This document shows positions 11,976 to 16,439 of a stretch of DNA of 64,000 nucleotides, one piece after another (the first letter of the stretch is position 1; every line of letters begins with the position of its first letter). Source of the DNA: Kosakonia oryzae (GTDB lineage Bacteria > Pseudomonadota > Gammaproteobacteria > Enterobacterales > Enterobacteriaceae); NCBI RefSeq assembly GCF_001658025.2, contig NZ_CP014007.2, positions 3,162,001 through 3,226,000 on the forward strand, read 5' to 3'. The translations under genes and the position numbers were made by a program. The notes under the pieces were generated by a model. That model saw only the letters and a program-made list of their open reading frames with translations. It ran no database searches and had not been told where the DNA came from.

Positions 11976-12327
11976 AGTCCTTTCTTTCCTGTAGTCAAAT
12001 AATTGGCGCAAGAAGTTTAACCGCCCACGACATCCTACCCAAATTTTTTTACCTGAACATTACAAAAAAGACGCTAATTGTTCATAGCGCCTTACCTGGC
12101 GTATTTAGTACGACAAAACGCTGCCGCACCCTGCTCAGCAAAACTGCGCTGTGTCGTTTCTGGAATTGCTGGCGACAAATGACGCACTGTACATACTGTT
12201 ACACGGCAATACTCATCATTCCCCTGCGGCTGGTATATAGTGTCGCGGAAACAAAGTTTCCTTTGTCTGTGACTTTGAAAAACAACAATTTTGAAACATA
12301 AGAACATCAAGTAATTTCACGTTTATA
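11976..12327. promoter_or_regulatory. Divergent mipA-dlt intergenic region
   Basis: These 352 bases carry no gene. They are AT-rich and must hold the mipA and dlt promoters. GGAAAC-AAA-GTTTCC (12247-12261) overlaps a second inverted repeat CAAAG-TTTC-CTTTG (12252-12265), about 65 bases before the dltD start; this could be an operator. No confident -35/-10 pair was assigned; a TATAAT overlaps the dltD start codon itself. Confidence 0.4.
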
Positions 12328-13464
12328 ATGAAAATCAAAAATACTTTTTGCCTACATTTTCTGATGGCACTTCTTGCCGTCCTGTTCCTTTGTATTCATC
12401 CGCTGATGAACAGTTATGCTCCGCCGCTTAAATTCCAGCCGCTGATTGAATCTATGGACGGAACGACAAAAGAACAGGCGGAAAAAATAGCGACTATTTC
12501 CCATGCTTTACAGGGCAATGCGATTTTTTTCATTGGCGCATCGGAGGTAGCTACCTCTGAAGATGAACCTTACGCCGTATATAATTATCTCAATAATAAT
12601 TTACATCGCAATGTAGTAGCATTTGGTGACAGTTTTGATGACAGCATCACACATTTTCTTTTGTTGTCACGCTTTAAAAATTCCCTTAACGCAAACAGTA
12701 AAGTGGTTTTACTGCTGGCCCCCGACAGCTTTTATTCTACTGGCGTGCCTCCCACTATTTTCGCTAACAATTTCCCGGCCCCTGTATTTAATCCATTAAT
12801 GCAGGATGAACAGACACGCCCATTTTTGGTCAATTACTTACGCAAAATAGATAAAAAGGAAACCAGCCATTTAACGTTTGAACAAATGAAAATCTCTGGC
12901 TGGGATCTGGACAATATCTGGCAAGAAGTCAGTTACGAGTTTGCCAACTTCTGCACGCTGATAAAAAACGACTGGCTGGCGATGCTGCATATTGTCCCTT
13001 CACCTGCGCGGCCCTGGCCGGTGCAGCCTGCCGTTGCCATCACGCCGGACTGGGATCGCGAACTGGCCCATGCCCACAAACTGAACGAGGCGCGTCAGGA
13101 AAGCGCCGACACCTTATGGATGGATAAAACTGTCTATGAACCGGGAGAAAAACCGGAAGTGTGGGACGATTCGCCCGTTGAAGCCGAACAAATGAAAGCG
13201 TTTCGCGCCATGATCCAGCTGCTGAAAGAGCACCACGTTCAGGTAGTGGTCATTATCGATGCGATTAATCGGCGCGCGGTACAAAACCCTGAACTGGTAC
13301 AGCCTGCGGTAACACAGACGACAGCCATCCTGAAAGAAAATCAGATCCCGTATCTTGATATGTATTCAATGCCCTACCAGAACGGCTGGAACTGGGATCG
13401 CCTGCATCCTACCGATCTCGCATGGGTTCCGATGGACCGCTTTATTGTTGAGAGTTTTAAATGA
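12328..13464 (+). CDS. dltD: DltD-like D-alanyl transfer protein
   Basis: SGNH-fold, membrane-anchored protein of the DltD family, which acts on the outer face of the membrane in the last step of D-alanine transfer to envelope polymers. A signal-anchor spans about residues 8-25. The nucleophile Ser72 lies in FIGASEVA and the Asp357/His360 pair in WDRLHPT, so the catalytic triad is intact. Length 378. No good ribosome site precedes the ATG. It is first in a five-gene operon; its stop overlaps the next start (ATGA). Family assignment rests on the residues and on the flanking dltB, dltA and dltC. Confidence 0.82.
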   Translation: MKIKNTFCLHFLMALLAVLFLCIHPLMNSYAPPLKFQPLIESMDGTTKEQAEKIATISHALQGNAIFFIGASEVATSEDEPYAVYNYLNNNLHRNVVAFGDSFDDSITHFLLLSRFKNSLNANSKVVLLLAPDSFYSTGVPPTIFANNFPAPVFNPLMQDEQTRPFLVNYLRKIDKKETSHLTFEQMKISGWDLDNIWQEVSYEFANFCTLIKNDWLAMLHIVPSPARPWPVQPAVAITPDWDRELAHAHKLNEARQESADTLWMDKTVYEPGEKPEVWDDSPVEAEQMKAFRAMIQLLKEHHVQVVVIIDAINRRAVQNPELVQPAVTQTTAILKENQIPYLDMYSMPYQNGWNWDRLHPTDLAWVPMDRFIVESFK

Positions 13465-13583
13465 TGAAATACGCTATTCGCCTGTTTTTCCTTTACCTCT
13501 TACTGGCGGTCACCATTATCGCGTGGTCCTCTGTTGATGAAAGCATGAATTTAAAAGTGCACTTTGAATATCAAAAGTTCTGA
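13461..13583 (+). CDS. dltX: DltX-like small membrane peptide
   Basis: A 40-residue peptide starting MMKYAIRLFFLYLLLAVT, with one membrane helix (about residues 6-22) and the C-terminus HFEYQKF. Gram-positive DltX is also a single-helix small protein whose aromatic C-terminal F-x-Y-x-x-F type motif takes part in D-alanyl transfer with DltB. The ATG overlaps the dltD stop, and dltB starts seven bases after the stop behind AGGA, so it is translated within the operon. It is too short for most gene callers. Homology is inferred from position, topology and the C-terminal tail only. Confidence 0.68.
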   Translation: MMKYAIRLFFLYLLLAVTIIAWSSVDESMNLKVHFEYQKF

Positions 13584-13590
13584 GGAATGA

Positions 13591-14712
13591 ATGATGTACA
13601 GCTCCGGAACCTTTTTCTTCTTTCTCTTTTCTTCGGCGTTGCTGTTTGCGCTGGTTAACCGCGTACTGCGTTACCGGTTAACTTATTTATCCGCATTTTC
13701 CGTGCTGGCGGCATTCGGCTGGGGATATATATTTCAGGGCGATTACATAGTCCCCGTTGCGGTATTCATCAGTTTTTATATTCTCGTGACCCTAAAAGAA
13801 AAAGGCTGGTTAAAAACCTGGCAAGCGGTAAGTTTAACCCTGCTGCCGTTGTTCGCGGTGAAATTGCATTTAAATAATCACTGGGGAATGATTGGCTTAT
13901 CCTTTATGACCTTCCGTGCCATTGATGTTCTGCTCTATCGCAACAAAAAAGATGGCAACAATATTTTGCATTATTTCTGCTACCTGTTTATGCCGTTTAT
14001 TATTCTGGCCGGCCCGATGTACCGCTGGCGCACATGGATCACAGATATTAATAAACCGGTATTTACGCTGACACGTGAGCAATTTCTCGTTGCTGCAGAA
14101 AGCATTTTTACCGGCATTATCCAGAAATTCTTATTTGCCATGCTGATCGATAACCTGGTCATTCAGTCGTGGAGCCATCGCCCGTTTAGCTTAAGTGTTG
14201 GCATTGTTATGTCGCTGGCCTATAGCGCCTATCTCTATTTTGATTTTGCTGGCTACAGCAATATGGCGATCGGTGCCGGACGCTTGTTTGGTCTTAATAT
14301 TCCGGCAAATTTCAATATGCCCATTCTGGCGAAAAATCCACAGGATTTCTGGCGCCGTTTCCATATCAGCCTGTCTGAATGGCTACGCGATGTGGTCTTT
14401 ATGTCGATATATATGAATTTAATGAAGCTCGACTTTTTCCGTCAGAACAAAACGCTGGCGCAGAATATCGGTATTTTCTGCACGCTGTTTTGTATGGGGG
14501 CATGGAACGGGCTCGAACGGCACTATGTCATTAGCGGCGCGCTGTTTGGCGCCATTTCAGTTGCACACAATATGTTGCAATGGTCAGCAAAGCGCAGCCC
14601 GGCACTGAACCGTTGGTTGCAATACCCCGTGATGCTCTTTTTGGGACGCCTGTTAACGCTCGCAAGCGCTGCGGTATCCCTTTACATTTTTAGCGGAATG
14701 TCTCCCCTATGA
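13591..14712 (+). CDS. dltB: MBOAT acyltransferase DltB
   Basis: Multi-pass membrane O-acyltransferase that moves D-alanine from the DltC carrier across the membrane. About ten hydrophobic segments are seen over 373 residues. The MBOAT signatures are present: DFWRRFHISLSEWLRD with His258 and MGAWNGLERHYVISG with His311, the two histidines of the family, of which the second is catalytic. The start ATG lies behind GAGGA. Its stop overlaps the dltA start (ATGA), a sign of translational coupling. Confidence 0.92.
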   Translation: MMYSSGTFFFFLFSSALLFALVNRVLRYRLTYLSAFSVLAAFGWGYIFQGDYIVPVAVFISFYILVTLKEKGWLKTWQAVSLTLLPLFAVKLHLNNHWGMIGLSFMTFRAIDVLLYRNKKDGNNILHYFCYLFMPFIILAGPMYRWRTWITDINKPVFTLTREQFLVAAESIFTGIIQKFLFAMLIDNLVIQSWSHRPFSLSVGIVMSLAYSAYLYFDFAGYSNMAIGAGRLFGLNIPANFNMPILAKNPQDFWRRFHISLSEWLRDVVFMSIYMNLMKLDFFRQNKTLAQNIGIFCTLFCMGAWNGLERHYVISGALFGAISVAHNMLQWSAKRSPALNRWLQYPVMLFLGRLLTLASAAVSLYIFSGMSPL

Positions 14713-16142
14713 ATCTTCACTCTGATCTCCAGGCGCTCCAGGATTTCCTGCGTGCAGCATTACTCGATCCCGCCCGCCCGCATCAGTTAGCGATCAGCGG
14801 CAGCGATGAAACCTTAACCTGGCAACAGCTCTCTGTGGCGGTAACTGAGTGGTTACAGCGCTATCAGCGTTGCCAGCCCCCGGCCGGAACGCCGGTGGTG
14901 TTATATGGCCACCAGCAGGCGGAATTTGCGGTGGCAATCTATAGTTGCCTGCTCCACAACATTCCCTATATTCCGGTGGATTGCATCTACCCTCAGGAAA
15001 GGTTGAAGGAGATCTGCCACCTCGCCAGCGCGCCGTACTACTACGACGTAGCAGCCCGTCAGTTTGTGCCAACCGGTGAAACCGGCCAGCCGCTGGCGGA
15101 GCCGGATCTTGCCTATATCATGTTTACGTCTGGTAGTACTGGCAAACCGAAGGGCGTGCAGATCGGGCGCGAAAGCGTGTGGCATTTTATGCAGTGGGTA
15201 AGCCACGATTTCGCGTTGCCGCAAGTGCCGGTGCTGATGAATCACGCCCTGTTCAGTTTCGATCTCTCGTTGATTCCCTTGCTGGCGAATCTGGCAACCG
15301 GCGGCCACATTGTGCTGAATGCCAAAGAGGATATTGCGGCAGAAGACTGGCTTACCAGACTGAAAAATAATGCTGTCTCGGTCTGGGTTTCCACCCCCTC
15401 TTTCGCCTACCAGAAATTGCTCTCGCCGCAGTTTAATAGCGACTTTTTACCTACGCTTGGCGTGTTTATATTTATCGGCGAGGTGCTCAACAAAGCGCTG
15501 ATTAAACAGCTACGCCGCCGTTTTCCGCAGGCCAAAATCCTCAACTCTTATGGCCCGACCGAAGCGACTATCGCCACCACCGTGGTTGAAATCACCGATG
15601 AGATAGTGAACAGCGAGAACGACCTGCTGCCAATCGGCACCATGATGCCGGAATCCAGAATGGAGATTACTGCCGAGGGTGAGTTGATAATCTGGGGCAA
15701 AAACGTGATGCGCGGCTATCTCGGCCTGGCGCAGGAGAATGCAGAAAAATTACTGCGCCGGGAAGGCGAAGCCTGGCGCGGCTATAAAACGGGCGATCTC
15801 GGCTATGAAGACGGGCTTCTTTACTGTCAGGGGCGCAATGACAGCCAGATCAAACTCAACGGCTACCGCATTGAAATCAACGAGATTGAAAACCGCCTGC
15901 TGGCGATGTCCGGCATTCGCGAGGCGGTCGTATTGCCGTTGATGAAAACAGGCGGCGGCGTACTGCGTATCGCAGCGTTCTGCGTAACGAAACTGGCGCC
16001 TGACGCCATCAAACATTCGCTTTCACAGGTGGTGCCCTCGTACATGGTGCCGTCGCAAATCATTATCCAGGACGCGTTGCCGTTGAACCCTAACGGTAAA
16101 ATCGACCGTAAACTGCTGGACAGCCACGCCCGCAGCCACTGA
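14709..16142 (+). CDS. dltA: D-alanine--D-alanyl carrier protein ligase DltA
   Basis: Adenylation enzyme that activates D-alanine with ATP and loads it on the phosphopantetheine arm of DltC. ANL-family motifs in order: FTSGSTGKPKG (139-149), the GEVL segment near 257, YGPTEAT (281-287), TGDLG (361-365), IKLNGYRIE (381-389), and the catalytic lysine K464 in NGKIDRK. Length 477 is close to Gram-positive DltA (about 500). The ATG overlaps the dltB stop. A stand-alone NRPS adenylation domain is the main alternative, but the neighbours decide for DltA. Confidence 0.92.
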   Translation: MNLHSDLQALQDFLRAALLDPARPHQLAISGSDETLTWQQLSVAVTEWLQRYQRCQPPAGTPVVLYGHQQAEFAVAIYSCLLHNIPYIPVDCIYPQERLKEICHLASAPYYYDVAARQFVPTGETGQPLAEPDLAYIMFTSGSTGKPKGVQIGRESVWHFMQWVSHDFALPQVPVLMNHALFSFDLSLIPLLANLATGGHIVLNAKEDIAAEDWLTRLKNNAVSVWVSTPSFAYQKLLSPQFNSDFLPTLGVFIFIGEVLNKALIKQLRRRFPQAKILNSYGPTEATIATTVVEITDEIVNSENDLLPIGTMMPESRMEITAEGELIIWGKNVMRGYLGLAQENAEKLLRREGEAWRGYKTGDLGYEDGLLYCQGRNDSQIKLNGYRIEINEIENRLLAMSGIREAVVLPLMKTGGGVLRIAAFCVTKLAPDAIKHSLSQVVPSYMVPSQIIIQDALPLNPNGKIDRKLLDSHARSH

Positions 16143-16159
16143 TTACACAGGAAAAGACA

Positions 16160-16381
16160 ATGGAACAAGAAATTCTCGCGCTGTTTGAAAAGATTCTGTC
16201 CCGCAAAGTGGGCTTTCATGATGAGCTGATCGAGTCCGATATTCTCGACTCTATTCTCGCGGTAGATATGGTTCTGGAAGTGCAGGACGTTTACGGCTGC
16301 ATGATCCCGCCGACGGAAGTCGCCAGCGTACTGAAAACACCCGCCGATTTAGCGCGTTACATCGAAGAGAACCGCGGCTAA
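16160..16381 (+). CDS. dltC: D-alanyl carrier protein DltC
   Basis: Acyl carrier protein of 73 residues. The phosphopantetheine attachment serine is S31 in DILDSILAVD, matching the LLDS context of DltC carriers. It begins 17 bases after dltA with an AGGA ribosome site and is followed by a terminator, closing the operon D-X-B-A-C. It needs a phosphopantetheinyl transferase encoded elsewhere. Confidence 0.9.
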   Translation: MEQEILALFEKILSRKVGFHDELIESDILDSILAVDMVLEVQDVYGCMIPPTEVASVLKTPADLARYIEENRG

Positions 16382-16404
16382 TCACGCAGGCGTTATGGCA
16401 TTCA

Positions 16405-16439
16405 AAGGCTCCAGGCGTTATCGCACGGAGCTTTTTTTT
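16405..16439 (+). terminator. Rho-independent terminator of the dlt operon
   Basis: AAGGCTCC pairs with GGAGCTTT across a 14-base loop and runs into eight or more T residues. Confidence 0.7.

Follow-up and report, generated by a model that had tools for sequence, protein, structure and literature searches.

A complete dlt operon in Kosakonia oryzae with asparagine at the catalytic histidine place of its MBOAT protein DltB

How does a membrane-bound O-acyltransferase (MBOAT) work once the histidine regarded as its catalytic residue is gone? The question is raised by an operon of five genes, dltD, dltX, dltB, dltA and dltC, in a 64,000-nucleotide stretch of the Kosakonia oryzae genome (contig NZ_CP014007.2, positions 3,162,001 to 3,226,000 of the forward strand). 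This whole stretch is called the window, and coordinates below are counted from its first letter. The operon is real and complete, and chance is excluded. It is of a kind already known, a little studied Gram-negative resistance system, and it does not belong to the Gram-positive equivalogs. The noteworthy point is the loss of the invariant MBOAT catalytic histidine in a conserved operon under selection that is needed for peptide resistance in near relatives. DltB lacks a residue described as universal and essential, which makes its mechanism a testable question. The gene and the residues concerned are the following.

13591..14712, + strand: dltB, MBOAT protein, 373 amino acids (Pfam MBOAT 33.2 bits, cut-off 27; alignment to S. 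thermophilus DltB)
14362-14364, + strand: DltB His258
14506-14508, + strand: DltB Asn306, at the place of the catalytic histidine
14533-14535, + strand: DltB Ser315
14545-14547, + strand: DltB Phe319
14566-14568, + strand: DltB His326

This histidine is regarded as universal among MBOAT proteins and is named as the likely catalytic base (PMC12148441). It is His336 in S. thermophilus DltB (PMC11035591). In the window the same alignment column holds Asn306, within MG-A-W-N-G. The first-pass annotation of this DNA had listed the MBOAT histidines among the intact features; this holds for His258 but not for the catalytic one. Asparagine stands at this column in all 17 rows of a first alignment, which came from a search without selection for Asn, and in all 53 full-length rows of a wider set of loci, the scan for which used in part a peptide pattern that includes the Asn. 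It also stands in 24 of 24 full-length DltB proteins of Burkholderiales, found when a profile made from Asn-bearing rows was run against 200 genomes of the Candidimonas family; one of these genomes is certainly, and one probably, the same as a named Candidimonas locus. Histidine occupies the column in 44 of 44 other aligned MBOATs, including six Gram-positive DltB proteins; the 24 rows of the Asn type in that comparison partly overlap the 53-row set, and L030 is unaligned at the column. An alignment error is ruled out, as MG-x-W-N-G lines up with MG-x-W-H-G of Gram-positive DltB. All 53 rows encode the asparagine as AAC or AAT, one base from a histidine codon. Row counts here and below derive from 56 loci, from which L004, L089 and L091 were dropped for DltB, L004, L089, L090 and L091 for DltD, L068, L085, L089 and L091 for DltA, L068 and L091 for DltC, and L004, L088 and L090 for DltX (DltX of L088 and L090 was read by eye).

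Further positions of DltB have switched, but not His258. This residue corresponds to His289 and is unchanged in 53 of 53 rows and in all 24 Burkholderiales. Phe319 is equally invariant in the 53 rows, at a column that holds His in all six Gram-positive DltB proteins and in 35 of 36 other MBOATs. Ser315 (53/53) takes the place of Tyr345 of Gram-positive DltB. His326 is present in every one of the 53 rows, whereas it is found in none of the six Gram-positive proteins and in five of the 36 other MBOATs (L116 and L117 were omitted from the comparisons of the second histidine and His326). Phe319 and His326 also occur in 24 of 24 Burkholderiales. His311 was considered as a substitute base and is ruled out, being Asn in seven of the 53 rows.

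A maximum-likelihood tree unites the Asn clade (13 rows) with Gram-positive DltB (6 rows) against 35 other MBOATs with support of 100/100; L116, L117, L103 and L030 were omitted from it, and ten rows were marked for unusual composition. Given this grouping, the histidine was most simply lost on the Asn branch. The best Foldseek matches of the predicted DltB structure are likewise DltB structures, 8jem and 6bug. By fold and by family DltB is thus an MBOAT protein, and the invariant catalytic histidine of the superfamily is absent from it. No mention of the change from His to Asn was found in the literature on Gram-negative dlt and His-less MBOATs; the coverage of this literature was partial (Taneja 2013, Pandin 2016 and a 2023 paper on the DltX mechanism lay outside it), so absence from print is not established.

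With a confidence slightly above even, we read the entire proteobacterial DltB branch as an active MBOAT acyltransferase without the catalytic histidine. A single branch would have rebuilt the site, with Asn for His336, Phe for His349, Ser for Tyr345 and a new His at window residue 326, and another residue or mechanism would move the aminoacyl group from the carrier to the tyrosine of DltX; the enterobacterial sub-branch would then have changed its amino-acid pocket too. Alternatively, DltB could be catalytically dead and serve only as a channel or scaffold; either the nearness of the DltC thioester to the DltX tyrosine would then suffice for the reaction, or another protein would catalyse the transfer. 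The complete invariance of Asn306 and the loss of the second conserved histidine fit such a protein, as does the reported requirement for the universal histidine in DltB and PatA (PMC12148441). We nevertheless hold a dead DltB to be quite unlikely: dltB is under comparatively strong constraint within the operon, with a ratio of nonsynonymous to synonymous substitution rates (dN/dS) of 0.04-0.06, and two invariant histidines, His258 and His326, are still present in the half of the sequence that carries the active site. Resistance in D. dadantii needs dltB (PMC3544676), although a scaffold would be needed there as well. For the other genes dN/dS is 0.05-0.07 (dltA) and 0.06-0.13 (dltD), with six pairs for each gene, and 0.02-0.25 for dltX, whose 40 codons carry little information. 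Low dN/dS in dltB, dltA and dltD together with the absence of stops rules out a decaying copy.

The case for an active system draws on relatives that have been studied in the laboratory. Homologues of D, X, B, A and C in a Gram-negative genome, which mark the proteobacterial dlt/dra systems, are all present in the window. In D. dadantii within aphids, dltB, dltA and dltC are up 32-, 20- and 9-fold, and a dltB mutant suffers 99% mortality in one hour of polymyxin; the authors describe the modified substrate as unidentified (PMC3544676). Peptide resistance in soft-rot enterobacteria, probably via modification of lipopolysaccharide (LPS), is described by PMC5541007, citing Pandin 2016, and D. solani needs its DltB to be virulent on a weed host (PMC10931765). 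The dra locus of B. pertussis (BP2987-BP2991) is reported to bring D-alanine into the outer membrane and to confer peptide resistance (PMC4448142, PMC9858536).

The soft-rot loci (Pectobacterium, Dickeya) resemble the window in their five genes of the order D-X-B-A-C, in a DltB that is 87-91% identical and in Asn306, which is present in two Dickeya species other than D. dadantii (L057, L067); they differ in the insertion site, which in the window lies between mipA and yeaG. Bordetella dra is likewise a five-gene locus, and its Burkholderiales relatives have the DltB asparagine and the DltX motif. Candidimonas, taken here for Bordetella dra, differs from the window in the order C-D-X-B-A, a DltD of only 21% identity and the cysteine kept in DltA. 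The first-pass annotation had proposed that the operon D-alanylates an envelope polymer. Aminoacylation of the envelope fits the reports on D. dadantii and dra; the specific choice of D-alanine is weaker, since the selectivity residue of DltA is changed and the equivalog cut-offs are unreached. Its suggestion of resistance to cationic peptides may also hold, by analogy with the homologous dltB of D. dadantii (polymyxin) and with dra.

Three other systems may be compared. Gram-positive dltXABCD shares with the window the five components, the DltX motif, the DltD triad, the carrier serine and the DltB fold. It differs in gene order, as had been noted before, and in the equivalents of DltB His336, His349 and Tyr345 and of DltA Cys269, all changed in the window. 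DltB identity is 29-34% over the aligned part, which together with the separate clade rules out a Gram-positive contaminant or a recent transfer. Gram-negative cells have no teichoic acid, and no such acceptor is expected. PatAB and other MBOAT-SGNH pairs have an acyl-tyrosine shuttle motif and an SGNH partner, as the window does (PMC12148441). Unlike it, they draw on acyl-CoA, have the motif as part of the MBOAT protein and retain the histidine. AlmEFG of Vibrio cholerae is not known to have a DltB-DltX-DltD module. It aminoacylates the Gram-negative envelope against peptides, as the window operon probably does, and puts glycine onto lipid A (PMC9178039).

Are the partners of DltB equipped for the transfer? 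The remaining parts of the operon are these.

12328..13464, + strand: dltD, SGNH/GDSL-type transferase, 378 amino acids (Pfam DltD 79.3 bits, cut-off 22.7)
12541-12543, 13396-13398 and 13405-13407, + strand: DltD Ser72, Asp357 and His360 (alignment)
13461..13583, + strand: dltX, one-helix peptide, 40 amino acids, with the C-terminal acyl-shuttle motif FEYQKF at 13563-13580
14709..16142, + strand: dltA, adenylation enzyme, 477 amino acids; Ile256 (15474-15476) is at the place of B. cereus Cys269
16160..16381, + strand: dltC, carrier protein, 73 amino acids; Ser31 at 16250-16252 (Pfam PP-binding 34.5 bits, cut-off 20.8)
16404..16439, + strand: intrinsic terminator, 9-bp stem and eight T (fold)

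The annotation of five tightly coupled genes in the order D-X-B-A-C is borne out by the list of open reading frames, which places five coupled + strand frames at 12328-16381 ahead of the terminator, and by matches above the Pfam gathering cut-offs for DltD, MBOAT, AMP-binding, AMP-binding_C and PP-binding. The genome has a single DltB match. The flanks are mipA and yeaG, as annotated. The terminator was rightly recognised, too: its stem folds at -17 kcal/mol (z -3.59), and none of 200 shuffles was as stable. A simple terminator scan missed it, presumably since it takes loops of 3-8 only.

The DltD triad described at first is intact, Ser72 and His360 being invariant in 52 of 52 rows and the Asp-x-x-His-Pro motif occurring in 51 of them. 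The carrier serine of DltC is in place, and its DS motif is found in 54 of 54 rows. DltX is the predicted one-helix peptide. The first-pass annotation passed over its C-terminal motif, as it did the promoter discussed below. This terminus fits the acyl-shuttle motif FXYXXF of Gram-positive Dlt, as defined in PMC12148441, in all 53 rows (FEYQKF in 43, FEYQQF in 10); the 24 Burkholderiales have [FY]xYQQF (FQYQQF in 18, YEYQQF in 6).

DltA retains its adenylation motifs, as had been claimed, but its equivalent of B. cereus Cys269, the pocket cysteine of Gram-positive Dlt, is Ile256. Isoleucine stands there in 50 of 52 DltA rows, with Cys in two Candidimonas only; the cysteine is kept in 24 of 24 Burkholderiales and in the five Gram-positive loci read. 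Given this distribution, we infer that the DltB change is the older one and that the DltA change would be confined to the enterobacterial branch. Could this branch carry an amino acid other than D-alanine, e.g. glycine, D-serine or L-alanine? Besides the lost cysteine, pocket-code position 239 is Ile instead of Met. Cys269 is a major determinant of D-alanine selectivity in B. cereus, where C269A loosens the preference (PMC4176424), and DltA of S. aureus also accepts D-serine (PMC12071552). Against another amino acid are the pocket residues Asp, Leu, Ser and Lys, which all 52 rows retain, the nearest structures, which are DltA enzymes, and the cysteine of the Burkholderiales relatives; moreover, a bulkier residue could still shut out L-alanine. 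We consider a different amino acid rather unlikely and continue with D-alanine as the probable substrate.

The analysis establishes which genes are present and in what order, their motifs, the substitutions and how invariant these are, the phylogeny, the purifying selection and the conservation of the promoter. From this a route can be proposed in which every chemical step, the amino acid, the acceptor and the regulator are inferred. We lean, by a little, towards the following course for the proteobacterial Dlt branch. DltA would adenylate an amino acid of small size, most probably D-alanine, before loading it onto the phosphopantetheine arm of DltC Ser31. DltC would dock at the inner face of DltB, which would transfer the aminoacyl group through its rebuilt site to the tyrosine in the C-terminal FEYQKF of DltX. 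As base, DltB would probably use His258, the newly gained His326 or both; Asn306 occupies the former position of the histidine. DltX would pass the group to Ser72 of DltD, and DltD would place it on an acceptor of the outer envelope, LPS or another outer-membrane component, which would then be less negatively charged and bind less cationic peptide. The route is favoured because the domains and catalytic motifs are complete, the DltX motif is kept, dltB is under purifying selection, DltB belongs with DltB proteins in tree and structure, and it agrees with the reports on D. dadantii dltB and dra.

Several points weigh against it, besides the reported requirement for the histidine and the changed pocket of DltA. 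A dltD mutant of D. dadantii is reported to be as resistant as the wild type (Pandin 2016 via PMC5541007), a poor fit with DltD as the obligatory last step. The link between the asparagine and the tested strains rests on the DltB of relatives and not on the D. dadantii or Bordetella proteins themselves. The NCBIfam equivalog cut-offs are not reached by DltD (TIGR04092, 61.5 against 150), DltB (TIGR04091, 192.5 against 375), DltA (TIGR01734, 367.9 against 559.85) or DltC (PRK05087, 23.2 against 68). DltX has no NCBIfam match, and the matches of DltC are too weak to tell it from acyl carrier proteins. The AlphaFold model of DltB has a mean predicted local distance difference test (pLDDT) score of 70, with residues 241-263, including His258, among the worst; for this mean score, active-site distances in the model were not used. 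Finally, dS exceeds 1 in four of the six DltB pairs.

When would the operon be expressed? Upstream of dltD lie two candidate elements.

12190..12203, + strand: RstA-box-like site TACATACTGTTACA, one mismatch to the consensus from systematic evolution of ligands by exponential enrichment (SELEX); candidate by sequence
12236..12241, + strand: -10-like hexamer TATAGT, read from aligned upstream regions

The hexamer is absent from the output of a sigma-70 scan. The SELEX consensus of the RstA box is TACATNTNGTTACA (PMC4117788). A site of the form TACATNNNGT[TA]ACA occurs 125-186 bases upstream of dltD in 49 of 51 loci, which are related by descent and not independent (L088 was left out), and shuffled upstream regions have it in a mean of 0.02 of 51 (100 rounds). 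The site is lacking in two Buttiauxella of these 51 loci and in two Candidimonas loci. The pattern TACATNNNGTTACA has three occurrences in the 5.4-Mb genome, and a reversed control pattern has one. One of the three is at the dlt operon and another at the promoter of the acid shock gene asr (NF033636, 82.8 bits, cut-off 50), which is reported to be a target of RstA under acid (PMC4117788). The asr promoter (L132 1500-1618, same genome) has an RstA-type box and flanking bases in common with the dlt promoter. The two promoters match over 34 ungapped columns, and none of 2000 shuffles did as well. Among ten further loci compared with asr, seven beat all 300 shuffles, L057 was equalled once, and L075 and L082 were indistinct from shuffles. 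The dlt promoter of Buttiauxella L076 is closer still to the asr promoter. RstA is encoded in the genome (NF007977, 463.7 bits, cut-off 330), as are PhoP and PmrA; a look at 25 representative upstream regions, each about 260 bases long, turned up no PhoP or PmrA box.

These similarities suggest that acid or envelope stress probably switches the operon on via its own RstA-type promoter. It is possible, though we doubt it, that another regulator of the OmpR family binds the site instead. ArcA would be an example; Pandin is said to have described in 2016 its control of dltB in D. dadantii. Only two of the 51 loci fit the SELEX consensus exactly, and with about 2.6 occurrences of TACATNNNGTTACA expected by a simple calculation, the three observed carry no evidential weight as a count. 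The two loci no closer to asr than shuffles point the same way, as does the finding that D. dadantii needs neither PhoP nor PmrA to sense polymyxin (PMC3544676). For RstA speak the shared TACATNNNGTTACA places, the 34-column match with asr and the presence of RstA itself. The site of CarR, the regulator of AlmEFG, in the tcpP promoter is likened by its authors to an RstA box (PMC9178039). A perfect inverted repeat, GGAAAC-AAA-GTTTCC (window 12247-12261), stands right after the -10-like site; among the 25 representative upstream regions the window shares it with Kosakonia sacchari L040 and with no other.

How widely is the operon distributed? A search of Enterobacteriaceae for DltB had been suggested at the outset. 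Of 295 genomes sampled from the family, 26 gave a match of at least 58% identity, interrupted by stops in one case, so the window is no isolated oddity; any MBOAT match was found in 49 of the 295. Pfam DltD matches occurred in six of 398 sampled genomes of the phylum, all of the same family, and in one of 369 of the class, the window's own; this profile misses Burkholderiales DltD. In a collection of 5,426 E. coli genomes, a near search gave no match to the operon and a distant search none to dltB of L053. A scan by name yielded 52 loci, in Kosakonia, Pectobacterium, Dickeya, Symbiopectobacterium, Enterobacter, Lelliottia, Phytobacter, Pluralibacter, Cedecea, Buttiauxella, a Serratia strain, two further Enterobacteriaceae, a record labelled Chryseobacterium and two Candidimonas (Burkholderiales). 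The Chryseobacterium record (L075, contig titled Chryseobacterium sp. 18061) holds an enterobacterial-type operon with DltB 73% identical to that of the window, and its label or assembly is doubtful.

Enterobacterial loci keep the order D-X-B-A-C, decayed copies aside. Interrupted or incomplete copies were seen in Enterobacter sp. EA-1 (L030 and L089), two Symbiopectobacterium (L068, L085) and Pectobacterium sp. PL152 (L091); the majority are intact. Both mipA and yeaG flank the operon in six of the 52 loci and in the window, and insertion sites otherwise differ. In Kosakonia sacchari DltB is 98% identical, and the flanking yeaE, mipA and yeaG are 95-98% identical. Neighbours elsewhere include porins, a fimbrial usher, efflux and solute-binding proteins, regulators and a transposase fragment. 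No gene common to all loci was found among 29 neighbour proteins scanned (15 of 18 loci); near relatives share a LysR regulator and a hydrolase (L061/L064), a flavodoxin fold (L052/L060) or a porin (L062/L084).

Three copies are on plasmids of Enterobacter and Klebsiella (L002 15001-19053; L003 15001-19053; L004 2-2243 with L186 1367-2625), and two of these plasmids are conjugative by typing. In Enterobacter cloacae and Klebsiella electrica, insertion sequences flank the plasmid-borne operon on both sides. On the E. cloacae plasmid these are IS903B-type and IS1 transposase genes, in a region that also carries aph genes and tet(A). The copy of the K. pneumoniae plasmid runs across the record start, with an IS1 transposase downstream; a gene named pmrD also lies downstream of it. 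A lone dltB is seen on a Ligilactobacillus murinus plasmid (L122 2513-3921) beside a bactofencin-type bacteriocin gene, as if serving the producer.

The operon thus appears as a self-contained cassette, probably protective against peptides, with its own stress-type promoter, at varied chromosomal places and on the three plasmids. The change in DltB may also matter for inhibitors. In DltB, m-AMSA is placed between His289 and His336 and forms a bond with Tyr345 (PMC11035591), and the last two of these contacts are changed in the window protein. A conserved Asn branch with a dltB phenotype in near relatives amounts to a natural mutant of the MBOAT histidine, in which the role of this residue is directly testable. 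If DltB is indeed active without it, the invariant histidine would be no requirement of MBOAT chemistry.

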